Position numbers and translations under genes: made by a program
Part shown: in pieces, positions 3,401-63,360 of the stretch
Layout: each line of letters begins with the position of its first letter
Position numbering within the stretch: the stretch's first letter is position 1
Assembly (NCBI GenBank): GCA_914767715.1
Contig: OU612074.1
Span: forward strand, 1,565,501-1,629,500
Direction: 5' to 3'
Source of the DNA: Membranipora membranacea
Lineage: Eukaryota > Bryozoa > Gymnolaemata > Cheilostomatida > Membraniporidae
DNA length: 64,000 bases
Notes under the pieces: model-generated
Told to the model about the DNA's origin: nothing
Databases searched by the model: none
The model's input: the letters and a program-made list of their open reading frames with translations, nothing else

Positions 3401-4460
3401 GTGCTAAACAGAAGTTTCTTTTGTGCCTCTTGAGTACAGCGGCGATCTACACGCATACTCTGCCTTTGACTCAACATCATCTCACAGTCCCCAATACAAG
3501 ACACTACAGTGTAATTTGGTAGTAATTCCAGAGGAGGGCTTTCGAAATCTTTCATGTTTATCGCTCACTTTTATCAATTCTTTGGAATTATGTCATGTTT
3601 ATTGCACACCTTTATCATCATGCAGGTGGTGGTAGTTTTGTGCCTAACGAGGAGGGAGTTATGATTATAATGTCTATGGGATTTACACGAGATCAGGCTG
3701 TTAAAGCTCTCAAGTCTACAGATAATAGTATAGACAGAGCAGCTGATTGGATATTCTCACACGCTGATGAGTTAGACACGCCCATGGATACAGACCCCGC
3801 CCCCAGCTCAGAAGCTGCATGTAAAGATGGAAGTGGTAGTAAGTTTATCTGGAAGTCATTGGCTGTGATACACTCATTGCATTCGTTAGTTATATGAACC
3901 AGCTTCCTAACCACCATTTTGATCTATGACATGTGTAAAAGTGTAAACTATGATGCGTGGTGTCCTGAGTTTGAAGGCTGCTCAAAGATTGTCTTAGTTT
4001 ATTCCTGCCTGTATAATTCGATAGACTGTATAAACAATATATGTATCTGCTGCATGAGCTTGAAAACTGTAACTTGTGGTATTGACCTCCATTAGGAGAG
4101 GCCTTTTTCTGTTTTTATGTGAACATCTGATTTCAAATCCATGCCAAGGAGCTGCACAATTTGTGCTCGAAATGGAAGTGACACTCCATATGCTACCACA
4201 CGAGACTTGATTGTCCTACTCATATATTTATATTTTTTTATTTTATTTATATATTTATTTGTTTATTTATATATTATGTTTCAGAGTACCGACTGAAGGC
4301 GTTTATCTCGCACATGGGGACATCGACAGTCGTGGGACACTATGTATGCCATATATTAAGAGAAGGCCGCTGGGTTATATACAACGATGAAAAAGTAGCA
4401 GAGTCTAAAAACCCACCCAGGGATCTAGCCTATGTTTATCTGTATGAGCGAATAGACTGA
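480..4460 (+). CDS. USP5/13-like: Ubiquitin C-terminal hydrolase, USP5/USP13 family (3' part)
   Basis: This is the C-terminal part of a cysteine deubiquitinase of the USP5/USP13 (isopeptidase T) family, which disassembles free polyubiquitin chains in cytosol and nucleus. Seven exons fit with continuous phase: 480-584, 971-1107, 1823-1911, 2397-2575, 3064-3181, 3626-3835 and 4285-4460. In order they encode the family segment around LPVVMD, the stretch [11 protein letters not shown], the block [16 protein letters not shown]1 ([13 protein letters not shown] continuing to [14 protein letters not shown]), UBA2 ([16 protein letters not shown] with [11 protein letters not shown]) and the catalytic-His box ([24 protein letters not shown]). 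Order and spacing match animal USP5/13 closely. The Cys box and zinc-finger UBP domain are upstream of the window, so the entry is partial by position, not broken. The stop codon is at 4458-4460 and an AATAAA lies at 4692-4697. USP5 and USP13 cannot be separated on this part alone; a single ancestral gene is likely in an invertebrate. Confidence 0.93.
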
Positions 4461-35698: not shown

Positions 35699-38600
35699 AT
35701 GTATCCAGCAAAGAGAAAAAAACTGGATGAAGGAGGAAATGATGAAGGCCAGGCTACAGATCGAATCGCTGGTGGTGAGTGGAGTAATCGGGCTTCGGGC
35801 TCAGATCGGCCTGGTGGTGGTGAGTTGTGTATTTAGGAAAATAAGGTGGCCTTGCTTGCTCTGGACACCCCTCAGGGTAATCACCCCACAGTGTTCTGGT
35901 AAATCTGCTTAATCAGAGACCTACAACAGTCCTAAATATTGCTGTCATTCAATTGAATTAATTATCATCCTCATGTCATCGTTATTGTTAGTTATTCACT
36001 ATTATTCAGTATGTATAATACAGACTGTATCTTTAGACAAATCCAGAGGCTTAATACTAGGGATGTGAAGTATGCCTTTTCATCTAACCAACAAGCGCAA
36101 GACGAAGCAGCGATTAGAATATTAGAACCCTGAAGTAAATCAAAATATGGGTGGTCTGTTCCTCCATGAGGTTGTGTCTAGTTTTGTGAAACATGAGACT
36201 TTGTCCGCCCACACAACCCACACAATACTTACTTGAAGGTACAGAGGTTCTTTAGTTTTTATATGACTATATGAACCTCTAACTAACTGTTTTAACATTC
36301 ATAGCAGAACAAAGACTTCCTCTACCTGGTTATACTCAATATGAACAAAGTCATTACCAAACAAACCAGCATCATCAGAGACAAGATCTGTATCATACAG
36401 CTACAAGTCATCAGACACTACAGGATGTACAGCAGTCCAAACCACTAGACTTATCTGTGAAGCAGTCAGCTCACACAACCACACAGACAGTGGGTGAGTT
36501 TTGTTTTGTTCAGTACATGGATATTTGCGTGCAAGAACACATGTTTTATAAAGGGGAAAAATATATATTATATATGTTTATGGACAATGATTTATTGATT
36601 GATGAGTACTTTATTATCGATCAAAATACATTTGCAACGAATGACTATGTATGTAGTGGATCTGATTTGACATAAATTGATAAAAAGACTTCAGTACGTT
36701 GGTTAGAAAAAACAATTGAAATAAAACAGGATTTGGTCACATCATCGGTTACAGAGTCTATATATAACTGCCATATTTAGTGAAAAGGCATTTAGCTGCA
36801 ATGGCAGTAGTGTGCTTTATGATTTTGGATTTATTGCTCACTAGTCTCTTAGGTCTGCAGTTCTGGTTTTCAGATCGAGTTGGCAGGATGTTGCTATGAA
36901 GCGAGGCTTTCTTCTGGCAGTATAGTATACATGTCATTTGTAGAACATCAGTAAGCATTTCAAGATTGGCTACTTGGCGGCGCTGTGTGTAACTCTCTAG
37001 TTCAGGATAGATGATTTTGAGTGCTAGCCTTTGTATACGCTCTATTTTGTCTATGCATTGCTGACTTACAAATGGAAACCATGCAGGAGCTGCATATGTT
37101 GCTACAGGTATGATATTTCCTTTGTACATATGTAAGAGACTGCTCTTGCTGACTCCATAGCGCTTAAGATTAATGAGGCCGTGGCACTTAGATCTGCATG
37201 CACTGACCATTTTTCCAACATGTGTTGAGAATGTGAGATGTGTGTCTAGTGTCACTCCAAGAAGTCTGAAGGTGGAGACATCTTCGATCGGAGAGTCCTG
37301 TATGGTTATACATGGGATGGTTGGAGGTTTCCTCAGGTTGATTATCATTGTCTTGGTTTTCTTTGTGTTCAGAGTGAGGCAGTTCTCTCGGCTCCAGCTA
37401 CTGATGTCGTCTGCAGCTGGTTGAAGGGTGGATGTTGATCTGTTGGTGATGGTGGTGTATGCTGTTGTGTCATCGGCATACTTGATGATCTTTGAAGAAG
37501 TTGACGGCATGTCATCCACAAACTAGATAGTGTTCATGATTTCTAATCGCCAGTGACAGAGAGGCAGTTAACCAGATATAGTCATGCTGTGATGTAGCCT
37601 GACAGGCTTTGTTCAGCGGGGGGGGGGGGAAACCTTGTCAACTCTTGCGAACGAGCTGTCGATAGGTTGATTCGTTCCATTTTGAAATCAGGTAGAAGAC
37701 TCCATTTACCCTGGGATAAATTGGACTCGGAAATGAGAAAACCGACATTTTAGGAATGTTTAGAAGAGTGGTCTTCTCGTAAAATTGGGGAGAAAACTCT
37801 TCTAAAATATCGGGAGTCCTATTTTTCCGATCTAATTTAAATATAGTGTTCACCCCGATTTAAACAGGGAATAACAAAGAGGGGACAACTGAACTTACCA
37901 ACAGCTCATTCGCATAGCTGACAAGTTTTGTTCCCCCCTCCTACCGAAAAAAGCTTGTCCAGACAGGCTAGCAGTGATGCTGATATCAGTAAACCATTCA
38001 ATGGTGGATACCCAGCATATGTTGTCTTCTCTTGTCTCTCTCTCTCTCTCTCTCTCTTCCCTATGTTTTCTCTCATGTCTCTATGTAGGTCATACTCCCT
38101 TATTACAAGATAACCGAGCACAGTCTGAGTCAGATACACAGAGCCAGCTGGACAATGACTTCCCTACTGTTAGTAGACACCTGGAGTCCTCATTCTATGA
38201 GAATCAAACTCTCCCACACAGAAATAAGACAGTCCTTCACTCAGGAGATAAAGGTATGTCCAGGTTTAAAGTTAGCCATACATAAAATAAGACATTCATG
38301 TTATTCGATTAGCTTATAATAACTGTGGCACAGATTGCTTTGGTATAAGTTTAGATATAGGCGATGGTGAGATGTCGCCAATGCAATCTGTTAGTGTGCT
38401 TGCCAGCTCACTGCCAGGCAAATGGTGTAGAGTGTTTGAGTCCAGCATGGTAGATTGTTTCAGTACCCAGCACCTTCGGGTGCAGCTATCACCTAGGTAC
38501 CTGAGTACATAAAAACCGTTATAAAAGGTTGTCTGTTCTATTGCTATGAGGGCATAACTCCGAATCACGTTAATATGAAAAATGATCATTGCGACAGTAT

Positions 38601-41600
38601 TATGTATCGGAATTCACGTGATTTCGCAACCTCTTAGTGGATATCATGTTAGTATTTTATGTGATGGTCATAACTTAGTATCAGTTATTATCTCACAAAC
38701 CTTGGTGCAGATCCTACATAACTTCCGCTGAGAAAATCTTCTGCATGTGGCTATGGCTGTGCAAAAAGAGTTGTCGCATCCTTCAGTATGCGTAGTCAGA
38801 AGACATGAAGTACCATTACAGGGCCGTCAAATAAATAGGAAAATACCTCAGCAGTTAAATATATGTGACATAACCTGTACCAATACCTGAATATCTAATA
38901 TAACTGACAATTGATTGAATGATTATGTCCTTAACTTTTCTGATATGTGTTGTACTAAATGTTGGAAAAAAATAATTAGGTGTTTTTCAGTCTTAGTGTA
39001 TAACTGTTCTGCAAAACTTTACGCTGAAACCGTCTTCAAGTGTGTTCCAAAACTGCCATAATAATTCTTGGTCAGTTTTTAAATTACGCAATATCACAGT
39101 ATTCTTTAGCTGAATTTTCCAAGTTTACCTCCATTAAACACAACATGACTTGTATCTACACCTATCTATATAACATGTATATAACATTTCCAGCAAATAA
39201 ACTGATGACAACTTATAGTTGCTGACTCAGTAAATACCAATAAACAACCTCTTGTGATGTTAGGACACCCATGAAGACTCAGTGTCGTCAGATTAAAACT
39301 AGACAGTTTTTAGTATTTAGGACAAAATCTAGTAATTTATTTGAGACGGAAATATAACCATCAGGACGATATCGTAAAGTATTTATACTTGCAGAGTATG
39401 AAGTCTGGTACAGAGATGATAGTCAGCCTGATATAAAAAATATATCTGACCGGCCAAACTACAGCAAACGTACTCTAGATGAGCTATTAACAGCTACAGA
39501 AGGTCACACTGTAACACATATGGCTATAAAAGGAGACATACCACCACTACAACAGATAGCACCTGATCTCAAACAGCTGGTGTTAGGAAATATTACTGAT
39601 GTAGATCAGTTAGAGATGTGAGTGGTATGATCTCTGTAAGAAATTCTGTCGTCATCATCTGAAGGCAACTCTAATATGTTGATATCAGTAATGATAGATT
39701 ATGTATGTCCTAAAGACAGCATTGCGATTCCATTTCCAACCAAAAAATTGGCAATCATCCATCAATTGATCATCGGAAATTACATTCAATTTGTAAAAAC
39801 CTAATAATAATGTTGTGCTTAGATAAAATACCATGAGACCCTCTTTGATACTTTCCTATTGATTGAAAAACGCAAAGATATGTACATGAAACGGCGCAGG
39901 TGGTAAAATACATACATATTGCAAGCAAGTCAGATATGTAAAAAGAATTACTGTAAGTAAGGATGAAATTATTGACCATTTTACCTGCGTCAAAACTAAT
40001 GTTAATATTAGCCCTGGAATTTGCAAAAACAAAGTCTTAATTGACATCTTCTATGGCAAAAAATCTCACTCCAGCTATTAGCGCCACAATTATTTAGTTC
40101 TATCAGCTTTGCTAGCATTGCCCTGAAATTGCATGTAATAGTTGTGCCGACAGATAAAGTGCAGCACAGCATGCTGATATGTTACATTGTGACGTATATC
40201 ACTGAGACCCACTTTTGTATTTTGCTTCATTATAGCATCAGACTAAACTAGAGGTTCTGAACTTAAGTATTAATGGCAGGATCAGTTCTTTACCGAACTG
40301 TATCGCTGAACTGTAATTCGTTACTGTAAGGATAAATTCATTTACCATTTAAATTGGTTGGAAAATTAATGTTCAACTTAAAAATAAAATTGTTAGCCCC
40401 GGAGTCGCATTTATCCAGTAATAAATCATAGATTCAGCAAACCCATAAAGCCTCAGGTTGTTTGCCCATAATAGGAGAGGGTAAATACTAGAAAAGCTGA
40501 TGATGCTTACTGTATAATAAAAAATAGTGATCTTTTCATGATTAGTACTTTTGATGCTTGGAAGGTTTGATATTTATATTTCCAAAGACTTGCATCAACA
40601 CAGCTCAATTTTTGGGTTGGTTACACTAATTTGTCCTGTACATCACATAAAACACATCGTGTAAATACTGAGGTGTAAATGTAAATGTGTATACTATATT
40701 CTATTTCTCATTATAGCATCACTTCACTGCCTAAACTGGAGGTGCTTGATTTGTCTCATAATTACTGACTCCGCACTTTACCCAGCAGTATCGAGGAACT
40801 GAAAAGTCTAACAAACCTTTTTCCTAAATTGTCACTGTAAAGATGAATTCACTTAACTTTCGATGAAAGAGTAATGTGAATCCTAAATAGAAAAATATTA
40901 GCCTTGGTATTGCGTATCTCCAGTAACAAACATAAACTTCATAAAACCCATAGGACCTCGGGTTGTCCACTCACTGTAAGAGAGGATAAATACTAGTGAA
41001 GCTGATGAGCTCTGCTGCCTTCACTGAATAATAATAGATAGTGAATAATTCATAACTAGTATTTTAGATGGTTCGATATTTGTATTTCCACAGGCTGCAT
41101 CCTACACAGCTCAATTTTTGCGGTTGGTTGCATTAGTTTGCCCTGTACATCACTAAGAACATGTTTTGTAAATACTAAGGAGTAAATATAAATATGTATA
41201 CTTTATTCTCTTTCTTATTATAGCATCACTTCACTGCCTAAACTAGAGGTGTTGAAGTTATCCTGTAATAGGAGACTCCGCACTTTACCCAGCAGTATCG
41301 GGGAACTGAAAAGTCTAACAAACTTAGTTATAGTTGGCTGTGATATTACTGAGATACCAGAGAGGTAAGTATAATATATATTTCAATTGCTCAGGTCATA
41401 TTGTTGGCAGGTCATATATAGATAGTGTGTTAACGGTGAGTAAATATCCACAGCTAAGATTGTTCCTTTCAATCCTAGAGATTGTCCTACTGCAAAAAAC
41501 TACCTTTGATGTGGACTAAAATTTTCAATAATATGAATATTTTGGCTTTGGGAGGCAGTCTCAGTTTCAGTATTTGGATACAAGGCAGGAATTTTCCTAA

Positions 41601-44600
41601 ATTGTCACTGTAAAGATGAATTCACTTAACTTTCGATGAAAGATTAATGTGAATCCTAAAAAGAAAAATATTAGACTTGGTATTGCGTTTCTCCAGTAAC
41701 AAACATAAACTTCATAAAACCCATAGGACCTCGGGTTGTCCACTCACTGTAAGAGAGGATAAATACTAGTGAAGCTGATGAGCTCTGCTGCCTTCACTAA
41801 ATAATAATAATAGATAGTGATTAATTCATAACCAGTATTTTAGATGGTTCGATATTTGTATTTCCACAGGCTGCATCCTACACAGCTCAATTTTTGCGGT
41901 TGGTTGCATTAGTTTGCCCTGTACATCACTTAGAACATGTTCTGTAAATACCAAGGAGTAAATATAAATATGTATACTTTATTCTCTTTCTTATTATAGC
42001 ATCACTTCACTGCCTAAACTAGAGGTGTTGAAGTTATACAATATTCACGGACTCCGCACTTTACCCAGCAGTATCGGGGAACTGAAAAGTCTAACGAACT
42101 TAGCTATAGTTGGCTGTGATATTACTGAGATACCAGAGAGGTAAGTTTAATATATATATATTTCAATTGCTCAGGTCATATTGCTGCCAGGTCATATATA
42201 GATAGTGTGTTAACGGTGAGTAGATATCCACAGCTAAGATTGTTCCTTTCAATCCTAGAGATTGTCCTACTGCAAAAAACTACCTTTGATGTGGACTAAA
42301 ATTCTCAATAATATGAATATTTTGGCTTTGGAAGGCAGTCTCAGTTTCAGTATTTGGATACAAGGCAGGAATTTTCCTAAATTGTCACTGTAAAGATGAA
42401 TTCAATTAACTTTCGATGAAAGATTAATGTGAATCCTAAAAAGAAAAATATTAGCCTTGGTATTGCGTTTCTCCAGTAACAAACATAAACTTCATAAAAC
42501 CCATAGGACCTCGGGTTGTCCACTCACTGTAAGAGAGGATAAATACTAGTGAAGCTGATGAGCTCTGCTGCCTTCACTAATAATAATAATAGATAGTGAT
42601 TATTTCATAACTAGTATTTTGGATGTTTCGATATTTGTATTTCCACAGACTGCATCCTACACAGCTCAATTTTTGCGGTTGGTTGCATTAGTTTGCCCTG
42701 TACATCACTTAGAACATGTTTTGTAAATACCAAGGGGTAAATATAAATATGTATACTTTATTCTCTTATTATAGCATCACTTCACTGCCTAAACTAGAGG
42801 TGTTGGAGTTATCCAGTAATATAGGACTCCATACTTTACCCAGCAGTATCGGGGAACTGAAAAGTCTAACAAACTTAGTTATAGATTACTGTGATATTAC
42901 TGAGATACTAGAGAGGTACGTATAATATATATATATTTCAATTCCTCAGGTCATATTGTTGGCAGGTCATATATAGATAGTGTGTTAACGGTGAGTAAAT
43001 ATCCACAGCTAAGATTGTTCCTTTCAATCCTAGAGATTGTCCTACTGCAAAAAACTACCTTTGATGTGGACTAAAATTCTCAATAATATGAATATTTTGG
43101 CTTTGGGAGGCAGTCTCAGTTTCAGTATTTGGATACAAGGCAGGAATTTTCCTAAATTGTCACTGTAAAGATGAATTCAATTAACTTTCGATGAAAGATT
43201 AATGTGAATCCTAAAAAGAAAAATATTAGCCTTGGTATTGCGTTTCTCCAGTAACAAACATAAACTTCATAAAACCCATAGGACCTCGGGTTGTCCACTC
43301 ACTGTAAGAGAGGATAAATACTAGTGAAGCTGATGAGCTCTGCTGCCTTCACTAAATAATAATAGATAGTGATTAATTCATAACTAGTATTTTAGATGGT
43401 TCGATATTTGTATTTCCACAGGCTGCATCCTACACAGCTCAATTTTTGCGGTTGGTTGCATTAGTTTGCCCTGTACATCACTAAGAACATGTTTTGTAAA
43501 TACTAAGGAGTAAATATAAATATGTATACTTTATTCTCTTTCTTATTATAGCATCACTTCACTGCCTAAACTAGAGGTGTTGGAGTTATTCTGTAATAGA
43601 GGACTCCATACTTTACTCAGCAGTATCGGGGAACTGAAAAGTCTAACAAACTTAGTTATAGATAACTGTGAAATTACTGAGATACCAGAGAGGTACGTAT
43701 AATATATATATATTTCAATTCCTCAGGTCATATTGTTGGCAGGTCATATATAGATAGTGTGTTAACGGTGAGTAAATATCCACAGCTAAGATTGTTCCTT
43801 TCAATCCTAGAGATTGTCCTACTGCAAAAAACTACCTTTGATGTGGACTAAAATTCTCAATAATATGAATATTTTGGCTTTGGGAGGCAGTCTCAGTTTC
43901 AGTATTTGGATACAAGGCAGGAATTTTCCTAAATTGTCACTGTAAAGATGAATTCAATTAACTTTCGATGAAAGATTAATGTGAATCCTAAAAAGAAAAA
44001 TATTAGCCTTGGTATTGCGTTTCTCCAGTAACAAACATAAACTTCATAAAACCCATAGGACCTCGGGTTGTCCACTCACTGTAAGAGAGGATAAATACTA
44101 GTGAAGCTGATGAGCTCTGCTGCCTTCACTAATAATAATAATAGATAGTGATTATTTCATAACTAGTATATTGGATGTTTCGATATTTGTATTTCCACAG
44201 ACTGCATCCTACACAGCTCAATTTTGCGGTTGGTTGCATTAGTTTGCCCTGTACATCACTTAGAACATGTTTTGTAAATACCAAGGAGTAAATATAAATA
44301 TGTATACTTTATTCTCTTATTATAGCATCACTTCACTGCCTAAACTAGAGGTGTTGGAGTTATCCAATAATATAGGACTCCATACTTTACCCAGCAGTAT
44401 CGGGGAACTGAAAAGTCTAACAAACTTAGTTATAAATTTCTGTGGTATTACTGAGATACCAGAGAGGTACGTATAATATATATATATTTCAATTCCTCAG
44501 GTCATATTGTTGGCAGGTCATATATAGATAGTGTGTTAACGGTGAGTAGATATCCACAGCTAAGATTGTTCCTTTCAATCCTAGAGATTGTCCTACTGCA

Positions 44601-47600
44601 AAAAACTACCTTTGATGTGGACTAAAATTCTCAATAATATGAATATTTTGGCTTTGGGAGGCAGTCTCAGTTTCAGTATTTGGATACAAGGCAGGAATTT
44701 TCCTAAATTGTCACTGTAAAGATGAATTCAATTAACTTTCGATGAAAGATTAATGTGAATCCTAAAAAGAAAAATATTAGCCTTGGTATTGCGTTTCTCC
44801 AGTAACAAACATGAACTTCATAAAACCCATAGAACCTCGGGTTGTCCACTGACTGTAAGAGAGGATATATACTAGTGAAGCTGATGAGCTTTGCTGCCTT
44901 CACTAAATAATAATAGATAGTGATTATTTCATAACTAGTATTTTGGATCGTTCGATATTTGTATTTCCACAGACTGCATCCTACACAGTTCAATTTTTGC
45001 GGTTGGTTGCATTAGTTTGCCCAGTACATCACTTAGAACATGTTTTGTAAATACCAAGGAGTAAATATAAATATGTATACTTTATTCTCTTTCTTATTAT
45101 AGCATCACTTCACTGCCTAAACTAGAGGTGCTGGAGTTATCCTGGAATACAGGACTCCATACTTTACCCAGCAGTATCGGGGAACTGAAAAGTCTAACAA
45201 ACTTAGCTATAGTTGGCTGTGATATTACTGAGATACCAGAGAGGTAAGTTTAATATATATATATTTCAATTGCTCAGGTCATATTGCTGCCAGGTCATAT
45301 ATAGATAGTGTGTTAACGGTGAGTAGATATCCACAGCTAAGATTGTTCCTTTCAATCCTAGAGATTGTCCTACTGCAAAAAACTACCTTTGATGTGGACT
45401 AAAATTCTCAATAATATGAATATTTTGGCTTTGGAAGGCAGTCTCAGTTTCAGTATTTGGATACAAGGCAGGAATTTTCCTAAATTGTCACTGTAAAGAT
45501 GAATTCAATTAACTTTCGATGAAAGATTAATGTGAATCCTAAAAAGAAAAATATTAGCCTCGGTATTGCGTTTCTCCAGTAACAAACATAAACTTCATAA
45601 AACCCATAGAACCTCGGGTTGTCCACTGACTGTAAGAGAGGATAAATACTAGTGAAGCTGATGAGCTCTGCTGCCTTCACTAAATAATAATAGATAGTGA
45701 TTATTTCATAACTAGTATTTTGGATTGTTCGATATTTGTATTTCCACAGACTGCATCCTACACAGTTCATTTTTTGCGGTTGGTTGCATTAGTTTGCCCT
45801 GTACATCACTTAGAACATGTTTTGTAAATACCAAGGAGTAAATATAAATATGTACACTTTATTCTCTTATTATAGCATCACTTCACTGCCTAAACTAGAG
45901 GTGTTGGAGTTATCCTATATAGGACTCCATACTTTACCCAGCAGTATCGGGGAACTGAAAAGTCTAACAAACTTAGTTATAGATTGCTGTGGTATAACTG
46001 AGATACCAGAGAGGTAAGTATAATATATATATTTCAATTGCTCAGGTCATATTGCTGCCAGGTCATATATAGATAGTGTGTTAACGGTGAGTAGATATCC
46101 ACAGCTAAGATTGTTCCTTTCAATCCTAGAGATTGTCCTACTGCAAAAAACTACCTTTGATGTGGACTAAAATTCTCAATAATATGATTATTTTGGCTTT
46201 GGAGGGCAGTCTCAGTTTCAGTATTTGGATACAAGGCAGGAATTTTCCTAAATTGTCACTGTAAAGATGAATTCAATTAACTTTCGATGAAAGATTAATG
46301 TGAATCCTAAAAAGAAAAATATTAGCCTTGGTATTGCGTTTCTCCAGTAACAAACATAAACTTCATAAAACCCATAGAACCTCGGGTTGTCCACTCACTG
46401 TAAGAGAGGATAAATACTAGTGAAGCTGATGAGCTCTGCTGCCTTCACTAAATAATAATAGATAGTGATTATTTCATAACTAGTATTTTGGATGTTTCGA
46501 TATTTGTATTTCCACAGGCTGCATCCTACACAGCTCAATTTTTGCGGTTGGTTGCATTAGTTTGCCCTGTACATCACTTAGAACATGTTCTGTAAATACC
46601 AAGGAGTAAATATAAATATGTATACTTTATTCTCTTTCTTATTATAGCATCACTTCACTGCCTAAACTAGAGGTGTTGAAGTTATCCAATATTCACGGAC
46701 TCCGCACTTTACCCAGCAGTATCGGGGAACTGAAAAGTCTAACAAACTTAGTTATAGTTGGCTGTGATATTACTGAGATACCAGAGAGGTAAGTTTAATA
46801 TATATATATTTCAATTGCTCAGGTCATATTGCTGCCAGGTCATATATAGATAGTGTGTTAACGGTGAGTAAATATCCACAGCTAAGATTGTTCCTTTCAA
46901 TCCTAGAGATTGTCCTACTGCAAAAAACTACCTTTGATGTGGAATAAAATTCTCAATAATATGCTCGTCTTCTCCTAGTAAATTGCTGATATAGGATGAC
47001 AGTTCGCTGTGCGCAACAGCCTTTCCACATCAGATCTGTGTCTGTTCAGCAAAAGGCCAATTGCGCCAGGTTCTTGTTCAAGATTTTACTTATTTTTTTA
47101 TTCCGAGGCGTTCTATGCCAGTCTTTTCTTTCGTTGCTGAGCATGTCCCCAGAGTTCTTAAGTGTTGCTTGGCACAGATGACAGTCCCATAAAATCCCTG
47201 GGAATTTCATTTTTTTGATTTGGTTGTTCTTTGGGCTTGTACAGTACATACACGTACCTCAGATCGGAAGGGGACAACTTCTAAAACAACACATCAATTC
47301 ATATGAATTATTCTGTGTAAAAGCATTTCATTCATAACTACCGCATAACTACCGCAGAACTAGCTACCAGACTATATAACTGATTTGGTCTTTCTTATTA
47401 TAAAAATAACCAATAATGAGGTGAAAAATACTTTATTCCCTCCAATCTGATTGTGAAAGTTTCAATTATCGAACATTACATAAATTTCATTAGTTGAATC
47501 CTGACAGTTTTTAAATTTTGGACTGCTAAGTGAGCGTATTGAAAAGTGAAAAGAACCACAGGTCAGCACAATGCAATTATAATTCAAAGTAAACGGTGAG

Positions 47601-53600: not shown

Positions 53601-56600
53601 GAAATCCTGTGTCATTTTGTAAATAATACAACTTCTATTACAGTATTGGAGCACTCACAAACTTAGAGGAGCTTCTGTTAAATGAAAATAGAAGCCTCAG
53701 CACCTTACCTGATGAGATTGGAGATTTGAAGAATCTTAAAAAGCTAGATCTAAGAGAGTGCAATCTTACAGGGATACCTGATAGGTAAGTAATATAATTT
53801 CATTACTCGGAAACGTAATAATCTCCCACATCACATGAAGTGGTTAGCGTTATCCTGAACTAAAAAGAATAAATAACTGGGTATCATTATCACTTAAGGG
53901 TGTAAATATGATATTCATGAAATATGTTGGTCTAACTTTTCAAAGCAGTGTAAACGATGTGATTTGGTCCACAACATTTTTTTTAAGTATGTGGATATAT
54001 TATCTATTGGCTCCGGAGAGGGAACTAAATTTGATGTGAATTTTCTCTGTGAGTAGTTAGAAGGGAAAGGTTAGCTTTGAATTTTTTTAGTATTATACTG
54101 AAGAAATGATAGTTTATTCTCTTATTACAGTATTGGGTCACTAACAAACTTAGAGGAGATTGATTTATGTATGAATAAGAGCCTTCATACCTTACCCAGC
54201 AGGATAGGAGATCTGAAGAATGTTAAAAAGTTAGATCTACATCATTGTGATCTAACAGAGATACCTGAGAGGTCAGTTTAATTTGTTTAATGGGAATAAG
54301 ATGGGTGACTTATGGTTCACCAGCCAAGATAGGGGGTCAGCGATCTTGGCTTTACCTTTTACCTCAAACATGTAGGTTTGGAACTTGAGAGCCCAGCGCT
54401 CAACCTGCTTTCCTCTATGCCTTAATAGGCATACAGTTTATTTTGATGTGAATGATTTTGCCTAGTTACCAGGTCAGAAAATGAAAATCAGATATTAACA
54501 CTGCGCCCACACTACCTAATCCAGTAATTCTATCCAGTCTGCAGACAGTAATCCATCTTAAGATTCGGAGTCTTTTATTGTGGGATTTATTTCACTTTCA
54601 GTTAACACAATAATGTCTAGATTTGTAAGATGAACGATGGTGATTTACGGTCATGGTTCCTTCCAGCATTATATTTTGTATTAAAGGAAAATATTGAAAT
54701 GGTTTTAGATGCAGTAATTATGCCTCGGTCTGCGGTATGTTACTGTTCATTGATCATGGGGCATTATCTGTTTAATGACTCTGTCGCACCATGGCTGACC
54801 ATTGGCAAGTCAACAAGTCTGATGGCTTTTTGGGCAGCAGAGTGCATCAGATACCCACTCTGTGGCCAAATCTGCATGCGATTGTGTGATCCATACCAGG
54901 CAGCCCAGCAGCTCCCTTCACTCCCAGATCCTGCTTATTCTAGTTATGTACTGCATATCAGGGTTCTGAACAGATCAGTATCATTTCTCTGTTTATTGCG
55001 CACACATTCAACACCTCCAATCGCTACTACTTACCTCTTCAGCTGGCTATTGTAATATGATATGATGATCATAGGTTTGTTCAAGTGTCCGAGGATCCCT
55101 CTAGCTTGTACTTGTCAAGCACATAGTCTTTGACTTACGTTGTCTCATCTAGGCTCTTCACGATAGACCTGGTCCTCTATGGTGCTGCCTCTACCTGCTT
55201 GCTTGTCTTCTCCGAGTAAATTGCTGATATAGGATGACAGTTCGCTGTGTGCAACAGCCTTCCCACATCATATCTGTGTCTGCTCAGCAAAAGGCAAATT
55301 GTGCCAGGTTCTTGTTCAAGATTTTACTGATTTTTTTAATCCGAGGGTTCTATGCCAGTCTTTTCTTTCGTTGCTGAGCATGTCCCCAGAGTTCTGAAGT
55401 GCTGCTTGGCACAGATGACAGTCCCATACAATCCCTGGCAATTTCAGATTTTGGATTTGGTAGCTCTTTGGGCTTGTACAGTACATACACATACCTCAGA
55501 TCGGAAGGGGACAATTTCTAAACTAGTACATCGTTTCATATGAATTATTCTGTGTAAAAGCATTTCATTCATAACTACCGCATAACTAGCTACCAGACTA
55601 TATAACTGATTTGGTCTTTCTTATTATAAAAATAACCAATAATGAGGTGAAAAATACTTTATTCCCTCCAATCTGATTGTGAAAGTTTCAATTATCGAAC
55701 ATTACATAAATTTCATTAGTTGGATCCTGACAGTTTTTAAATTTTGGACTGCTAAGTGAGCGTATTGAAAAGTGAAAAGAACCACAGGCAAGCACAATGC
55801 AATTATAATTCAAAGTAAACGGTGAGTTGGCTGAATGAAAGGAGTGCCCTTTTCAATTTCATAACAAAAGAAACTGATCCAAGTTGCCATCAATCAGCCA
55901 ACTTACGAAATTTATGCAATGAAGATGAGTAATTATTTGGACCGAGGTCAGTAATAAACGCACCAACAATCAATGAGCACCCAGAAAGGGTCTCCAAAAC
56001 TGCAGTGAAGTCCCCGGAAAACGCTGGCTACTCACTCGAGGGAAAACGTTACTCCCCATCAAGCGCCCTGTTTGCGGAGCTGCCTCAATGACTCACCCCT
56101 CACAAGAAAGAGTGAAGTGATTCAAGTACAGAAATACAAATGCTACCCCCTGGCGTATTCTTACAAGAACGTCAATATAAATTAAATCCAGAAAGTGAAT
56201 ATTGGTCTTTCAAAAATCAGACTAATTGAAATCTTTACACTTAATTCGTCGGAAGAAATGGATCATGACACTTCTAAGTGTCCTATTCCTTATTTGGTTT
56301 GTGGGATAGTTTCTGCTACCAGGTTGTGGTTCAGACCCAAGCCTGTTATTTTCCGGAGCTCTTGTCTTGCCTTGTGTGGGGGGGGGGGGGAGGGTGGTGG
56401 TACGAGACCGTACACTCCAGAGAACAGGTGATTGACACCCATAGTGCTCAAAGACCCCCGGGACAATTGTGATTATCACTGATAGAACACATCCTTGATG
56501 TTAGAAGGATGAGTAGTTCCATCGGTTGGTTTTGTGATTACAAGAGTTGTCTGAGTCTGAGAAGTGTGTGATATGTAAGCGTTTTGAGTTGAAGTAAGAT

Positions 56601-59600
56601 TTGAGTTTTGTGGTTTGTGGGTAAGGAGAAGCCAGGGTGAATCCCTCGAGACGAGAGCCGGAATCGAACCTGGGACCTCTCACTTGATAGAAAAGGATGT
56701 GATCATTTCGCTATCAAAGCTTCCAGAGCTCACTCTTTTGGAATTTTTCCAAGTAAAAAAGCCATGATATGTCCATGTGCGATTCAACATGTTTGCAATG
56801 CCTTGCATGTTAGAAACGCTCCCACTGTTATTCATTAACGACTACATTAACGACAAATTATATGTATTATCCAGACAGCTCTGCAGTGAGTGTTTTTTTC
56901 ACCTCGCTTCAACAAATCCAGCTGGTAATTGGCAAGCTATACCATCTACCCAAGCTCTACACAGGCAGCTTTGCGACTTGCTCTTGCTCTACCACCTGAG
57001 CTTTGTCTTTATTGTTCATTGTTGGTAAAATCTGTATTTTTGCAACCCGGATCCAATTCACACTGCCTTGTGAACTTTGTACAACTATCAATACACAACA
57101 ATTGGGCGGAGAAGTCGGTACAAATGCATTAGGGAGTTCCTTAGTTATTATGAAATGTGAAAACATGCATAACTATCTGGTTGATTCTGACTAGGTTATT
57201 TATTTCGTATTTATTGAATGAAGCGGAGTTGTCTTGTTGAATGCCAAAATTCATGCCAGGTGTCTAGACTAGTAATGTTAGCTTTGAGATCCGATCAATG
57301 CTCAGAGTGCTATGTATCAGTGAACCACAAGGATGTGTGACACTGTGACTTTTAGTGTCTTGGTTATTGCACATTTCCAGAGGGAGAGAACTATTTCTAG
57401 TAGTGATTTATGACACTCTTGTCATTTCCTTGGCTCACCTGTATATCAGGTTAATGTTATAATGTTTATAAACCCGAACAACATTTCAGATTTTAGGAGT
57501 GATGTTTGACAGTTCTCTTTCTTTCTCTTAGTATTTCAGAGTTATCAGGTTTGCGAGCGCTAGACGTCAGTGAAAATAAATCTCTGAAAAGACTCCCAGC
57601 AAGCATCGGTAAGCTCTGCAAGCTCCAAAGCCTTAGCACTACGTCATGCATTTCAATGACTTTCCCTCCGTCGGCTGTCCGTAAACAAGGATTGAAAGCT
57701 GTTCTCAAGTACTTGGATGATAATGACAAGTGCGGTCACAGAAGCTTTCAATTCATTCCAGTAACTGTCATCGGTGAAAGTATGGCTGGGAAGACAAGTC
57801 TTGTAAAGACTATGCAGGGTGATAAGAGATCGCTTACAAAACGTTCAGGTGTCAACAAGTTAGATGAGGCTACCAAAGTGTTTAAAGTGAGCGAGGCAAA
57901 AACTAATGAGAACTCAACTCTAGTGTTTCATGACTTTGGTGGTCAGGTGATATATCACTTCACCTACCCACTCTCCTCTAGATATCAGTTTGTACCAATG
58001 CTAGTCATCAACATAGCCGAGTTTGACAGTCTTGTAAATATGAACGGTGTAGAGGCTGCTTGTGAGAAGCTTTGTTTCGATTGGCTCAGTCATCTTTATA
58101 TCTCCTGTCCCCAAGCTGGCCCTCCTCTTCTAGTGCTTACACATCGTGACATGATGAAAAGTGCCAAAGTGTTTAGAGAGAGGAAAAGACAACTGATTGA
58201 GGCGACCGAGACTCTGCGTCTGAGAATAATAAGGGAGGAAAAAACTATGGCACCCGAATCCAGTTCATTCTTCTCGATGACAAGTTTCTGTGATACAGCA
58301 AAGCCTCTCCTCACAGTTCACAAGCCCATGGTTGTTTATAAAGGATCTGGAAAGAGTGCAGTTGCCAATCTCAAATCTGCACTGCACATGATTGGGTTAT
58401 CAATCCTCACAGAGCTTCCAGAAAACTGGTACATCTTTATGAATCTGTGTGCAGGGAAGACAGATAAGCCCTATCTGACACTCGTTGAGCTAGAGCTGTG
58501 GTTCCCAGAAGACAAAGATCACATCGTTCTCCAGTATCTTCATGAGATTGGCAAGGTTATGTGGTACAAAGAGAGGGACAAACTAGCTAACATTGTATTC
58601 CATCGCATTGACCTGCTCACAAAGTTGGTTGAGTTGCTCTTTGATCATTCCAGCCAGGAGGCCTGGGATCAGCGTTTGAAGAATTTTATACAATACAAAC
58701 ATGATGGTCAGGGAATCGGCAAACGAAAGTATGAGAATATGGTTGACAAGTTTCAGACCACTGGAGTAATGAACTCGATACTCCTGTCTAACCTGATCGA
58801 CAGTGAGTCCGTGTTAGATCCTGAGGTCGCGACAGAAGTGCTGAAAGTCTTCCATCTGATATGTGGTCCGATATCAGAAGGAAGTGAAACCCACTATATC
58901 ATCCCCTACTTCAGTAAGAAAGTAATATCTGTCCTAGAAATAGAAGGATACATTCCAATGAAAGTTGAAATTTGCTTCGATGGCCTGCCACTACCGACCT
59001 ACGTGTACCACCTGCTGACTGCAATATTCGTAGATCTCAACATCACACCTCTAAATCACATAGAAGTGGGTATGAATGGCGCGTGTATCATGGAGAATGA
59101 TGGAACAGTGAAATACCTATTTCACAGTCACTCTGAGAGAAATGTGACCATCCTGACATTGACCAATTCGAAGGACATTGCCAACTCCTGGACTAGTCAG
59201 TTGTCTAATTTGAGGCATCTTACAGAGAAACTGAAAGCTGTGTGGAAGGGAGCACATTTTGAGACAGTATTTTACTGCTCACACTGTCTGCTCACCAAGC
59301 AACTCCATCCTACCATAGAGGTAGATCCAGATTGGGATGACATACTCAAGAAACCTTACACAGGCGCTGAACTATGTAAATGTACAAAGGATATAGCAAA
59401 CAAAGGACTTTCCATACCGTTTCCTCTTCTCAACCCTTGTGAGTGGATTTTTACTTTTGACCATCTATCAAATTCCCATAGTGCACATGCCAATGTCTAA
59501 ACCTGTCCTGTCTAAGTTTCAAACAATTTTTTAGGGAGAAGCATACCATCCTCGTTTGATCCCGTCAAATTTACACTACAAATAATGTCAGCCATATTTG

Positions 59601-62600
59601 AGCTTGTTCATATTCTTTCTTCTTGTAAAAAAAAGCCTCAAGTGATTAGTCAGCATTCACTATTCTTTTACTTGGAAGGTGGTAGCATAATAAAGAGTGG
59701 AATCCAGACTTTGGACAGGAGCTTACTGGAATATCAGCGTAGTCAGCAATCTCTAAGTTTGTTTTAATTTGCTTCACGAAAATTAACTCTTAAGCAGAAA
59801 GTGCATTTGCTGTTAATAATGATTGCAAATTCTCTGCCATTCCTTCTAAGTCAATTTAGTCGGCTTCAGTGCTACATAGGAGTAACTTTAATTTGTAAAT
59901 GCTTTAATTTTAATATACAATGTCAGTCCCTATTACAAGAAACATTTGTCATCAGTAGGGAAATCAATTGCACATACAACAAGTCACTGCCTCATGCCTT
60001 GTTTATATAGTGGTCTTTTATATCTTCTAGCTTGCTCATCATCTCTTCCTGGAGCTGCTGTACCACCAGCTGAGCTAGAAGAGATAATGGCCATCATCAA
60101 CTCAGATACAGCACTGATTAATCTAGAGCCAGTTACAGTTGATGGAGCTGCACCTACCTCAACCAAGAAGGTATGAGATGTTTTGAGTAGCGATCACAGT
60201 TTTCTCCGTGATTCACTCATTCTGAACAGTTACGTTACCAATTGGAAAAGGAACTTGATAGAGATAATGAAAACTTGTCGTAAAGCGGGAGCAAAAACAT
60301 TAGCTTAGTTATTGACGACAGATGAGCTGACCAGATTTACAGTCCATAAGATTTGTTATGTACTGTACTATACAAACTGTGCTGCTCTTGAATGTAGAGG
60401 AATTCTTGATACAACTGTTTCTTGATTGTGTATTTATAGGGAGTAAATCCGATGTCTGAAACACGAGGAAGAGCTCTTATTATCTCTAACTCATACAACA
60501 ATACAAGACAAGGCTCAGAACATGATTATGCTAATATGAAGCGGATGTTGGAGAAGCTCGGATATATCACTGTAGGAGGTCACAGAAGTTATCAGGCACA
60601 TGTAAGCATCATTCCAATTGGACCCAAACCAGCCTTCTCTATGACCTTAAGCGCTACCCATACAAAGCTCCTGATTATCCAGTTCAGTCTTGTTATATTG
60701 CTTCTGCCTCATTTTTTACAGGAGGTGATCACAGAGATACATAAGGAGACACAGCTAGTCGACGATCAGACAAGAGAATATGTACACAGACATCTCAGAT
60801 CGTTTATATTAGTTATCACAAGTCATGGTGATCAAGGAGTAGTAGGCGGATCAGACGGGAAACAGATAGAGATCACAGAAATTATGGACCTGCTCTCTCC
60901 TAAGAATTTCCCTGCTATGGAGAAGAAGCCAAAGATCGTTATAATACAGGCCTGTGCAGGCAGTAAGTAAAGTAACACTGGCACACCATTAATCTTGGCT
61001 AGGTCCTCGAGCGGTAGTCTATATGTTTGCATAGCTATCATGCCCCTCTACTCCATTGATAGTAGGGCGAGAGTATACTAAATGGAGGAGTAGTACCTCA
61101 CATCAAAACATAGTCTTGCCTTTCTCTTCTCCTCTTCAGTGATCTGTAATACTCCCTGTTTTATTTCTTATTTTTCCAGGTAAGAGAGAAATGCTGCGCA
61201 CAGATTGGCATGCTCAGGCTGCAGCCAATCAGAATCAGCCTGGAGGTGACCAGCGTGTACCTGATGATTATACAACAGACAGCACTGCTCATGATATATC
61301 TACCTCTGATTTCATCATCATGCAGTCAAGCTTTGACTGTAAGTTGCATATCATCATATTTCAGCTTTTTCAAAAAGCTATTTATTTGAGCATTTTATGC
61401 TTACATCTGTAAGCACTTCGAACAAGCTTCACAAGAAACATTCAATAAGCTATATCGCATTGCACGTGTGTGATAGAAATATTTTGTTGACACACAAAAT
61501 ATAAGCTTGTAACTAGTCTGAATGCCGCAAATCATTCACATCAGCATAGCATTTTCTCTACTCAGTCACATTCCAGAAGTAAGCTAGTAAGCTACTTAAC
61601 TAGCTAGCATATCGATCTGAACTGATAGTTAAAACTTTTTGGATGATTTTATTATTGCGATTTGACTACTCTTTTTACAGCGTTTGTCTCACCAAGAAGT
61701 CCTGTCGTAGGCTCACCATATATCAGAGCACTTGTGGCTGTATTCTACAAGTATGCTCATAGACTTCATGTAGAGGAACTAGCAGATATTGTAAGTTTAG
61801 AGGTTTTTCAACTACTGAGTATGAGTGTGGAACTTATTGAGCGGCTTCATCGGCTTCGGCGGTTTTATCAATTCATTTGACTTACTGATTCGTTGGTTGA
61901 CTGATAACAGATTTTATAAGCTCAAGAAGTGTGAAACAAGGTACTAAATTCTCACATATTTGCCCTTCATCTATAGATCAGATTGATTGTGGCAAAAATC
62001 GGAGTACAAAACACAGAATACCTGTTGGGAACCAGAAGATACCGTGGGAACCCTCAGGAGGCTCATGTTGCCTCAATGCCTCAGACTAGATGCACATTTC
62101 TAGGGTACAAGTTCTATCTCAGGCCTTTGAGGATAGACAACCATCCAAATAGACTCAGAAATCCAGTGTTACCAAATCCTACAACAACCAGGATTGAACA
62201 ACAACCTGGTAAGTGTTACATATGAGTTTACTTCTTCTCACATTATGCTTGTTCTCCTCCTTATATAGTTGAGTCATGCATTGGTTCTGTTAGTGATTTA
62301 AGTTTCGTTCTCACATGCCTTACTTTACCATAACATATGAGATTATGATGAACCTGCGTCTTACCTCGGCCAAAACCAATCATGATTAATCGGCCTCATC
62401 TGACCTCTCCTTCATTCTAATCGAGTTTTTTTCCCGTAAGACTTGGACTAAGGCTCAACCCCCAGTCCTGTAGCTCAAGTTAGATACGATATCAATGCAT
62501 TGTACGGATCACAAATATGAAGAAAAAAACTTGGCAACAGCGTGACACCAACATAGTATTTAGGCAGGGTCAAACATTATTTCAGAAATTCTATTTTTCC

Positions 62601-62698
62601 TTTGCGCAGATCACGAACAGAGTACAAGGGACAGTAATGGACTAGCCGTAGGATTACCAAAGATATTCTATAAGTGGTTAGTGAGGAGAAATGTGTGA
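35699..62698 (+). CDS. LRR - Roc-COR - caspase protein (Roco-caspase)
   Basis: One plus-strand gene is inferred. Exons are 35699-35774, 36305-36493, 38089-38253, 39395-39617; fourteen LRR exons (41224-41364, 42000-42140, 42775-42915, 43552-43692, 44326-44466, 45103-45243, 45876-46013, 46648-46788, 48218-48358, 48707-48847, 50866-51006, 51353-51493, 53644-53784, 54131-54271); 57532-59438 (last LRR, Roc, COR); 60031-60170; and 60440-60601, 60722-60962, 61180-61338, 61681-61790, 61977-62208, 62610-62698 (caspase). All junctions agree in phase; the sum is 5664 nt, 1887 residues plus stop. The N-terminus ([13 protein letters not shown]) is basic, then Gln/His/Ser-rich, with KPLDLSVK. Roco proteins are GTP-regulated scaffolds of the LRRK and death-associated type, and caspases are cysteine proteases of cell death and immunity. 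The inferred role is a GTPase-gated death or immune receptor. The start codon is the first ATG of an exon without upstream support. Transcript evidence would settle the exon chain. Confidence 0.85.
36758..37530 (-). mobile_element. 5'-truncated non-LTR retrotransposon (LINE) in intron 2
   Basis: An open minus-strand frame of ~255 residues begins inside a reverse-transcriptase domain: [20 protein letters not shown] carries the catalytic (F/Y)ADD motif. Then come [30 protein letters not shown] and the thumb-like region [15 protein letters not shown], ending at a stop at 36758. The order is that of jockey/CR1-like LINE polymerases. The N-terminal half, including any endonuclease, is missing, as expected of a 5'-truncated insertion. 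It lies antisense in the intron between 36493 and 38089. Confidence 0.85.
37583..37970. mobile_element. MITE-like element with ~65-bp terminal inverted repeats
   Basis: The left end (tagcctgacaggctttgttc, G-run, ccttgtcaactcttgcgaac, gagctgt) is the inverse of the right end (acagctcattcgcatagctg, acaagttttgttccccc, aagcttgtccagacaggcta). The interior of ~260 bp has no transposase. The flanks tgtgatg and agtgatg are similar and could be a target duplication. The terminal sequence recurs in the palindrome at 5580-5635. Confidence 0.7.
38035..38056. repeat. (TC)n microsatellite at a 3' splice site
   Basis: A pure ctctctct run sits about 35-50 bases before the AG at 38087-38088 and may serve as the polypyrimidine tract of exon 38089-38253. 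Length changes could affect splicing. Confidence 0.5.
38254..40238 (+). other. Introns around exon 4 of the Roco-caspase gene
   Basis: Apart from exon 39395-39617 ([13 protein letters not shown], then [20 protein letters not shown], probably an LRR cap) this stretch is intron. No transposon or RNA gene was recognised. Confidence 0.5.
40239..40320 (+). pseudogene. Degenerate LRR pseudo-exon
   Basis: Preceded by the same cattatag acceptor as the working LRR exons, but the opening has lost bases (catcagactaaactagagg against catcacttcactgcctaaac), shifting into a TAG. The remainder follows the LRR consensus loosely and ends early at gctgaactgtaattc. It is a dead first copy of the ~775-bp LRR unit. 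Confidence 0.7.
40717..40816 (+). pseudogene. LRR pseudo-exon with nonsense codon and lost donor
   Basis: Opens with the full repeat consensus (c atc act tca ctg cct aaa) but has TGA at the position matching the variable LRR residue. It is fused directly to downstream intron sequence (tttttcctaaattgtcactg), deleting the end of the exon and its splice donor. It cannot be used in the mRNA, and the phase chain works when it is skipped. Confidence 0.75.
41040..46965 (+). repeat. Eight tandem ~775-bp units, one LRR exon each
   Basis: Exon starts at 41224, 42000, 42775, 43552, 44326, 45103, 45876 and 46648 are 772-777 bp apart. Exons are 141 nt (one is 138), phase 2-2, encoding two leucine-rich repeats each: [10 protein letters not shown] with variable residues, then [17 protein letters not shown] and ITEIPER. 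Introns are nearly identical between units, including cagctaagattgttcctttc and actgtaagagaggataaata. Differences concentrate in the codons after LE(V)L(K/E)L and before ITEIPE, the variable positions of an LRR surface. Long minus-strand frames at 44703-44993 and 45480-45770 are shadows in duplicated intron. Confidence 0.92.
48848..48990 (-). mobile_element. Ty3/Gypsy RNase H-like fragment (unit 1)
   Basis: On the minus strand a short frame reads [20 protein letters not shown] followed by [10 protein letters not shown] and a stop. This matches the end of the RNase H domain of Ty3/Gypsy retrotransposons, where the pattern is RWxLxLQxYxF.V...G..N.ADxLSR. No other part of the element could be placed with confidence, so this is a relic fossilised inside the 2.8-kb duplication unit. 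Confidence 0.6.
51494..51636 (-). mobile_element. Ty3/Gypsy RNase H-like fragment (unit 2)
   Basis: Near-identical copy of the fragment at 48848-48990, carried by the second 2.8-kb unit in the same relative place, directly after LRR exon type B. It was duplicated with the unit, not inserted independently. Confidence 0.6.
54272..54414 (-). mobile_element. Ty3/Gypsy RNase H-like fragment (unit 3)
   Basis: Third copy in the third 2.8-kb unit, differing by only isolated bases from unit 2. The adjacent open plus-strand frame of 141 codons at 54630-55055 (and its copies at 51852 and 49206) has no recognisable domain and lies in intron. Confidence 0.6.
56385..56396. repeat. Poly-G run
   Basis: An unbroken G run followed by agggtggtgg in the intron before the Roc-COR exon. 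It is a possible G-quadruplex former and a likely sequencing-error site. Confidence 0.5.
56650..56727 (-). mobile_element. tRNA-like sequence (SINE head or tRNA pseudogene)
   Basis: Minus-strand sequence contains a canonical B box ggttcgattcc (about 56660-56670) and a weak A-box-like tgatagcgaaatgatca about 40 bases upstream. The arms do not pair as a functional cloverleaf: the T-stem and acceptor are mismatched. It is best read as a tRNA-derived SINE head or decayed tRNA inside the intron. Confidence 0.5.
57532..59438 (+). CDS. Roc-COR GTPase exon
   Basis: A single 1907-nt exon of the Roco-caspase gene, entered in phase 2. It starts with a final LRR ([31 protein letters not shown]). It then holds the Roc (Ras-of-complex) domain: P-loop [10 protein letters not shown] at about 57773-57802, switch-II DFGGQ at about 57932-57946, and the base-recognition motif LTHRD (THxD in place of NKxD, usual for Roco proteins) near 58134-58148. 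The COR domain follows, with [11 protein letters not shown], the winged-helix-like [13 protein letters not shown], and a C-terminal half. The open frame continues to a stop at 59500, but a GTGAGT donor at 59439 joins in phase to 60031. COR normally provides dimerisation. Confidence 0.9.
60440..62698 (+). CDS. Caspase (C14) domain exons
   Basis: Six exons encode a whole caspase-type peptidase. 60440-60601 gives the p20 start ([20 protein letters not shown], then [14 protein letters not shown]). 60722-60962 gives [10 protein letters not shown] with the catalytic His (about 60824) and IIQACAG with the catalytic Cys (about 60952). 61180-61338 is a polar linker ending [11 protein letters not shown]. 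61681-61790 and 61977-62208 give the p10-like part [20 protein letters not shown] and LIVAKIG. 62610-62698 ends the protein. The active-site pentapeptide is QACAG instead of QACRG/QACxG with Arg, and the p10 motif has Pro where caspases have Trp/Tyr (S-W-R). Both dyad residues are present, so activity is likely, with unusual substrate choice. Mono-domain alternatives such as paracaspase or metacaspase fit less well. Confidence 0.88.
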
Positions 62699-63360
62699 TT
62701 GATTATGTGTAGCCAGTCTGTCACCATCGGTTACAGAAATCACTACGATAGATAATATAACAGTTATAACTACTAAATGATGACGATGATCTTGGTCGAA
62801 TATGCAAGCTCAGAAACGACATAATCATTAACCTCATCTATACATCATTTTTACATATTTTCATGATGAGATAGTACATGCACATCACATTTCGAGTACT
62901 TGTATCCACTAGACCTCTATAGAAACCACGATATCAATGAACGATTTCAACCTTTAGAATTATGTTATCAATGAGACTGCCTCTGTGTCATCAAATTCGT
63001 TCATGTTCCTGTAAGAAGGATGTAGTTTTCAAGGTTTATTTGTATATGGTAAAGTAGTAAGTTTTTTTGACTAGCAAGTTGATTGCTTGAGTTATTGGCT
63101 GTAACAGTCATCAATTTTGTATGTGAATAATCATGCTATTGGACATTCCACTCATCGGCCACCTTTTCTCGCAATCAGGCAACCTGGCTGGGTGCAATTA
63201 TCGTATTATGGAAAATCAAATATTATTATCATGGTCTAGTTATAGAATATCGCTCAAATTTATCAGATATTGGAATTATTTTTGCAACTAGCTCCGGCTG
63301 GAGTTTACTATCGTCATGTACATATCCTGCTGATTATCAATAAACTCAATAAACTCGATA
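62699..63360 (+). other. 3' untranslated region of the Roco-caspase gene
   Basis: There is no further open frame. Two AATAAA signals at 63339-63344 and 63348-63353 are good candidates for the polyadenylation site, giving a 3' UTR of about 650 nt. Confidence 0.6.

Follow-up and report, generated by a model that had tools for sequence, protein, structure and literature searches.

A predicted LRR-Roc-COR-caspase gene and its paralogous family in the bryozoan Membranipora membranacea

Introduction

In animals, sensors usually recruit caspases by way of adaptor domains. Might sensor, switch and caspase also be encoded in one animal polypeptide? This question is raised by a locus of the bryozoan Membranipora membranacea within contig OU612074.1 (C10 among the 18 contigs, with 339,339,785 bases, of the genome searched), positions 1565501-1629500; we call this whole stretch of 64,000 nucleotides the window. 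A preliminary description of the locus had proposed that a gene at 35699-62698 joins leucine-rich repeats (LRR), a Roc GTPase, a COR domain and a caspase, in that order. The gene model, Pfam, the predicted fold and an alignment to caspase-1 confirm this order for the predicted product of one gene. If true, such a covalent arrangement would eliminate the adaptor step, and it would offer a compact system for studying how Roc-COR controls a C-terminal effector, which is an open question for LRRK2.

Gene structure

The model consists of 26 exons on the forward strand (four N-terminal exons, 14 LRR exons, one large LRR-Roc-COR exon and seven caspase-side exons) with a coding sequence of 5709 nt for 1902 residues, no internal stop and a terminal stop at 62698. 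All introns have AG/GT borders, and the phases run 0,1,1,1,(2 x14),2,1,0,0,1,1,0,1. The unbroken 26-exon chain described earlier is thereby upheld, whereas its totals of 5664 nt and 1887 residues are not; ours exceed them by 45 nt, from exon boundaries. The features of the locus are as follows.

35699-35819, +: exon 1, putative start ATG; N-terminus without a Pfam domain; phase 0 to 1, GT donor
36305-36493, +: exon 2, Gln/His-rich; AG/GT, phase 1-1
38089-38253, +: exon 3; AG/GT, phase 1-1
39395-39617, +: exon 4, where the LRR region begins; AG/GT, phase 1-2; LRR_4 at E 0.0098, below cut-off
40717-40860 (end approximate), +: degenerate LRR exon copy with in-frame stop, outside the model
41224-41364, +: LRR exon type 1, copy 1, 141 nt, phase 2-2
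42000-42140, +: LRR exon type 1, copy 2
42775-42915, +: LRR exon type 1, copy 3
43552-43692, +: LRR exon type 1, copy 4
44326-44466, +: LRR exon type 1, copy 5
45103-45243, +: LRR exon type 1, copy 6
45876-46013, +: LRR exon type 1, copy 7, 138 nt
46648-46788, +: LRR exon type 1, copy 8
48218-48358, +: LRR exon type 2a, copy 1
48707-48847, +: LRR exon type 2b, copy 1
50866-51006, +: LRR exon type 2a, copy 2
51353-51493, +: LRR exon type 2b, copy 2
53644-53784, +: LRR exon type 2a, copy 3
54131-54271, +: LRR exon type 2b, copy 3
57532-59438, +: exon with the last LRRs, Roc GTPase and COR (Pfam Roc; predicted fold, see below)
59439-60030, +: intron 3' of COR, donor CCTT^GTGAGT; in-frame stop at 59498-59500, one AATAAA at 59689
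60031-60170, +: linker exon A, COR to caspase; recurs in close paralogues, phase-1 acceptor
60440-60601, +: caspase exon B, large subunit, R179-like Arg
60722-60962, +: caspase exon C, SHGD and QACAG
61180-61338, +: caspase exon D, inter-subunit linker
61681-61790, +: caspase exon E, small subunit, R341-like Arg
61977-62208, +: caspase exon F, end of small subunit
62610-62698, +: last exon and stop codon; AATAAA at 63339 and 63348 downstream

As an observation on the N-terminal part, exon 2 encodes KPLDLSVKQ, which we take to resemble the PxDLS motif for CtBP binding.

Domain composition

The motifs on which the preliminary description relied fall where expected: AGKTS (P-loop), DFGGQ and THRD all lie in the exon at 57532-59438, and SHGD and QACAG both lie in the exon at 60722-60962. 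Pfam searches of the translation supported the three domains to different degrees. Peptidase_C14 is strong (71.2 bits on the reading frame at 60440-60970; 110.7 bits, 1.1e-31, on the full spliced protein), Roc is borderline (29 bits on the reading frame at 57503-59500, 26.7 on the full protein; cut-off 27), and COR-A stays below its cut-off (E 0.0067, 16.8 versus 35.3 bits). That a COR domain directly follows Roc is supported by an AlphaFold2 model of the region (predicted local distance difference test score, pLDDT, 80.7), which matches structures of C. tepidum Roco and LRRK1/2 (PDB 6hlu, 8e05, 7lhw). The P-loop Lys, the DFGG Asp and the THxD Asp are conserved in 10 of 10 aligned loci.

Caspase-1 is the best PDB match of the caspase part, and alignment places counterparts of R179, H237, C285 and R341, that is, the His-Cys dyad and the P1-Asp pocket Arg residues of the caspases (Peptidase C14A). 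Because both pocket Arg residues are present and the best solved match is caspase-1, the domain appears to be of the animal type. Counting only aligned loci among the paralogues, R179 is kept in 26/26, the His in 34/34, the Cys in 31/33 and R341 in 28/29, in a set that counts the L014/L015 genes again as L025/L028 and includes some more distantly related caspases. Two such distant caspase-domain loci, L001 and L002, align a Ser at the catalytic Cys, which might reflect inactive caspases or misalignment. A conserved autocleavage Asp in the linker was considered and rejected, given that NSD is not kept in all loci.

Neither CARD or DED nor NACHT or NB-ARC was found by Pfam at E<=0.1 on the 1902-residue protein. 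It thus differs from NLR inflammasomes, which carry a NACHT/NB-ARC STAND ATPase; by Pfam and fold, the switch is a Roc GTPase. The protein may work like an NLR, though it is not classed as one.

Recurrence in the genome

Is this arrangement an isolated case? A Roc-COR query over the genome returned 340 loose first-look candidates, from which 70 exons were scored, and all 70 entered the pairing count; caspase queries gave 133 matches in one search and 145 in another. All 70 scored Roc-COR exons (window copy included) are followed on the same strand, at 0.5-3.3 kb, by a caspase; about 0.05 such cases would be expected if the 145 caspase matches lay at random. By comparison of coordinates, a listed caspase follows 44 of the 70 (again with the window's) on the same strand at a distance of 1.07-3.31 kb. 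No caspase was found upstream or on the opposite strand within 8 kb of a Roc-COR exon among the 97 caspase rows compared, which comprise the 96 covering exon C from the 133-match search and one from the 145-match search, with matches to other caspase exons and the remaining rows of the latter search set aside. The DNA downstream of the other 26 Roc-COR exons contains a caspase in 26/26, with the catalytic His in 26/26 and the Cys in all 25 that cover it. Those of the 26 that were inspected by eye have a different short linker exon before the caspase, and these distant loci may therefore form a second subfamily.

Identity to the window copy in Roc and in the caspase is correlated (rho 0.71, p 1.4e-7, over 42 pairs of related, non-independent copies; of the 44 pairs, the window itself and C11:3048931, without an exon-C identity, were left out), which is consistent with duplication as a unit. 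We conclude that the gene belongs to a large paralogous family with the order LRR, Roc, COR, linker and caspase. The 53 of 97 caspase rows that remain unpaired with the 70 Roc-COR rows are hardly informative, because most Roc-COR candidates (270 of 340) were unscored.

Outside this genome, Roc-COR and caspase frames from other sources share longest-contig size and source in two pairs, P0008/P0041 (5626, ena) and P0018/P0035 (4757, lgn), which is suggestive only of the linkage in other species. Among 35 pattern matches on viral contigs, no relative was confirmed.

One gene or two

The frame that continues past COR meets a stop at 59500, and the locus was therefore tested against a reading as two adjacent genes, the case that the preliminary description had itself named as fatal to a fusion. 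On that reading, an LRR-Roc-COR gene would end at the stop, a caspase gene would start at a Met in exon A or B, and the two would have been duplicated as a pair. Does the end of COR then behave as a terminus or as a splice site? Within the genome, a CCNT^GTGAG donor is present in 10/10 loci where the COR end is available (12 loci were dropped as duplicates, other caspases or the window's own place, as were loci without an exon-B match), and CCNT^GTRAG in 22 of 26 more distant paralogues. Relatives from other sources, 18 single reading frames, point the same way. P0006, P0007 and P0011 stop short of the COR end; the other 15 reach it with a conserved '..PLLYP'-like end and unrelated sequence beyond. 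By eye, the residues at this end are C-E or C-K in 13, C alone in P0005 and C-M in P0018 (in P0016, P-C-E was taken by eye in place of a later PC marked automatically). C-E and C-K are what translation through a T^GTGAG or T^GTAAG donor yields, as TGT-GAG or TGT-AAG, so that in these relatives the donor is deduced from the protein reading.

On the far side of the intron, linker exon A of close paralogues carries an AQIDDI(M/V)SIVNSD-like motif behind a phase-1 acceptor. The motif was matched in 19 of 27 sequences (window included), with Met at the candidate start position in 12 and Val in 7, and in 6 of those 7 an in-frame Met is also absent upstream. Six of the eight unmatched sequences were read by eye, L016 and L036 being left out, and L009, L012, L013, L017, L018 and L020 have Val or Ile at this position. 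The Met of exon B is found in 15 of 21 matched sequences and replaced by Ile or Val in 6 (6/27 unmatched). Because neither Met is kept throughout, an obligatory independent start of the caspase is unlikely, and an optional one is possible; because both are present in many sequences, a shorter caspase-only transcript is likewise possible.

Several observations weigh against a single, always-fused gene. Beyond the in-frame stop at 59498-59500, the post-COR intron contains the AATAAA at 59689, although the window averages 0.79 AATAAA/ATTAAA per 600 nt. The Met residues of exon A (12/19) and exon B (15/21) are frequent, and in L068, L070, L071 and L072, 4 of the 26 distant paralogues, the COR exon ends in ATGTAT^GTAAAA. 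Moreover, no Roc-COR was detected near five caspase copies that have the linker exon and occupy three places: at C11:2.80 Mb, three tandem caspases (L029, L032, L033) lie 3.1-3.2 kb apart with linker exon A present, and none was detected in the 10.5 kb that precede the first; for the single caspases at C1:33.24 Mb and C1:31.996 Mb, none was detected in 4.8 and 4.9 kb upstream. A further caspase, at C10:23.81 Mb, has only a Roc-COR fragment upstream. The caspase module can therefore exist apart. Partial duplication could explain such free-standing caspases, as could a different set of 5' exons; both C1 copies may be broken, given that L030 lacks an exon-B match and L031 a small-subunit match in the sequence covered.

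Set against the stop, the AATAAA, the internal Met residues and the free-standing caspases, the two-gene reading has to account for a donor that 22/26 and 10/10 loci keep, as do most of the relatives from other sources, ahead of sequence that has diverged, for an exon A frame that is kept in loci without a Met at or before the candidate position, and for 70/70 pairing in one orientation. We consider two genes highly improbable; the conserved donor and the linker exon in most paralogues disfavor them. The same stop, AATAAA, internal Met residues and free-standing copies would also fit a further scenario, whereby one gene yields the fusion along with Roc-COR-only and caspase-only forms, through intronic polyadenylation or an internal promoter, and the balance of forms regulates activity. 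The absence of the internal Met residues from part of the sequences speaks against it, and we regard it as unlikely. Single uninterrupted frames through the caspase were also sought: L048-L050 join LRR and Roc-COR and end at the donor or within ~20 residues, so that none of these three very long-frame paralogues is an intron-free fusion.

Variation of the leucine-rich repeats

What might the LRR part contribute? All 14 LRR exons are of phase 2-2 and 138-141 nt (a 141-nt exon encodes two LRRs), so that skipping or duplicating any number of these exons could leave the frame intact. Among seven of the eight tandem type-1 exons (the eighth being omitted because its downstream flank differs), 22/138 sites vary compared with 36/588 in the flanking introns (p 3.8e-4). 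Codon positions 1 and 2 account for the excess (17/90, p 1.7e-4), with 6/45 at position 3 (p 0.11, not significant); these p-values are indicative, because the copies are not independent. Twelve codons have an amino-acid change and 3 show silent change only. For the full set of eight copies, mean nonsynonymous divergence (dN) is 0.089 and mean synonymous divergence (dS) 0.053, next to flank divergences of 0.031 upstream and 0.078 downstream, the latter raised by the unrelated flank of the eighth copy.

The amino-acid changes fall mainly in the LxLxxN segments, which form the concave face in known LRR structures. In the distant paralogues L048, L049 and L050, with 39, 32 and 24 repeats of 23 residues, the top variability columns are 18, 20, 21 and 22, and further variable columns are 1 (L048), 12 and 16 (L049), and 4 and 15 (L050). 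The LRR exons thus vary faster than introns, chiefly at likely ligand-face positions. At 48000-56200, a 2.6-2.8 kb block with two LRR exons (types 2a and 2b) is present in three tandem copies, the second and third of which share 99.5% identity over 2546 nt; the repeat represents a recent duplication or, possibly, a duplication in the assembly.

Known systems

Has this order been described before? In the open literature of PubMed Central, no animal LRR-Roc-COR-caspase protein was recognized, in line with the preliminary description, which knew of none. The order has been reported for bacteria, where LRR-AP-GTPase-COR proteins have a caspase among at least 24 C-terminal domains, with several paralogues in one bacterium (PMC8195603). 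The domain order found here is that of these bacterial systems, namely LRR-Roc-COR with a C-terminal effector; however, they are prokaryotic and the effector differs between paralogues (PMC8195603), whereas here a caspase follows in all 70 scored cases and the gene is spliced.

Among animals, sea anemones have LRR-Roc-TIR proteins with a low-threshold COR; these actiniarian NG1 (LRR-Roc/Ras-TIR) proteins and NG3 likewise tie Roc-COR to an immune signaling domain, with TIR or kinase-death-TIR instead of a caspase (PMC5094078). The placozoan Trichoplax also has several ROCO genes, for which a legend names CARD, TIR and LRR domains; this is at most a caspase-recruitment domain, and 'caspase' occurs once in the text, in that legend (PMC4104024). 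Human LRRK1/2, DAPK1 and MASL1 share the Roc-COR core, and most of them LRRs, but their partner is a kinase, a death domain or none; the reviews list three groups of Roco proteins, and their main text has no occurrence of 'caspase' (PMC6320773, PMC6337361). A figure legend on NLRs of the sponge Dysidea avara names CASc and COR domains, and a related protein is possible there, although no such fusion is described in the text (PMC12909245). Brown-algal LRR-ROC-COR genes resemble ours in tandem single-phase LRR exons and positive selection on the concave face, and differ in having no effector and one LRR per 72-nt exon instead of two per 141 nt and a caspase (PMC11378527). Finally, the inflammatory and initiator caspases caspase-1 and CED-3 match in sequence and in catalytic and P1-pocket residues; here LRR-Roc-COR stands in the prodomain position, and Pfam at E<=0.1 lists no CARD or DED.

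Mechanism and function

How might such a protein act? We think it probable that it is an intracellular receptor-protease, one member of a large family, in which the LRRs sense, Roc-COR switches and the caspase is activated by proximity. We envision a scenario whereby a microbial or self/non-self ligand that evolves rapidly binds to the LRRs, and binding frees the Roc-COR core from the LRRs and changes the core's nucleotide and dimer state. A COR-mediated rearrangement would then bring two C-terminal caspase domains together, and the paired caspases would be activated by proximity like initiator caspases, leading to cell death or inflammatory cleavage without a CARD, DED or Pyrin adaptor. In this sense the 'one-protein inflammasome' of the preliminary description might be an apt term.

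Its 'GTP-switchable dimerising core' holds in kind but not in the direction of the GTP effect: nucleotide-free C. tepidum Roco is dimeric, and GTP opens the dimer into monomers (PMC11052575). This is the opposite of the simplest proximity model and counts against the proposed mechanism; the sign of the GTP dependence is therefore not to be assumed. Candidates for the active form are a dimer that has formed again, a higher oligomer and a monomer whose opening frees the caspase.

Alternatively, the fusion might be real and the protease act outside cell death and immunity, by self-cleavage or on a developmental substrate. Caspases have established non-apoptotic roles, which would favor this alternative. 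Family size, tandem amplification and the excess of amino-acid change at likely ligand-face positions of the LRRs, all typical of recognition genes, argue the other way, and we doubt that it applies.

Returning to the receptor-protease reading, the family looks like a large, fast-changing set of one-piece intracellular alarm receptors. Whether this putative one-polypeptide inflammasome family (at least 70 loci, 340 loose candidates), with LRR cassettes that may be under diversifying selection, is a main intracellular recognition repertoire of the animal is a question on which we are evenly divided. Anti-microbial or allorecognition death may be its role, and duplication or alternative splicing of LRR exons may diversify it. 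If so, family size and LRR variability would mark a non-NLR receptor repertoire in animal innate immunity, parallel to the repertoire proposed in brown algae and to bacterial conflict systems.

Other features in the window

Three further features were found in the window.

36758-37522, -: reverse transcriptase fragment in intron 2 (RVT_1, E 4.2e-6, 27.0 bits versus cut-off 29.6)
12039-12530, -: hAT transposase dimerisation region (Dimer_Tnp_hAT, E 8.1e-8)
3526-3897: UBA-domain reading frame (UBA_7, 1.4e-13), which we presume may derive from a USP5/13-type gene

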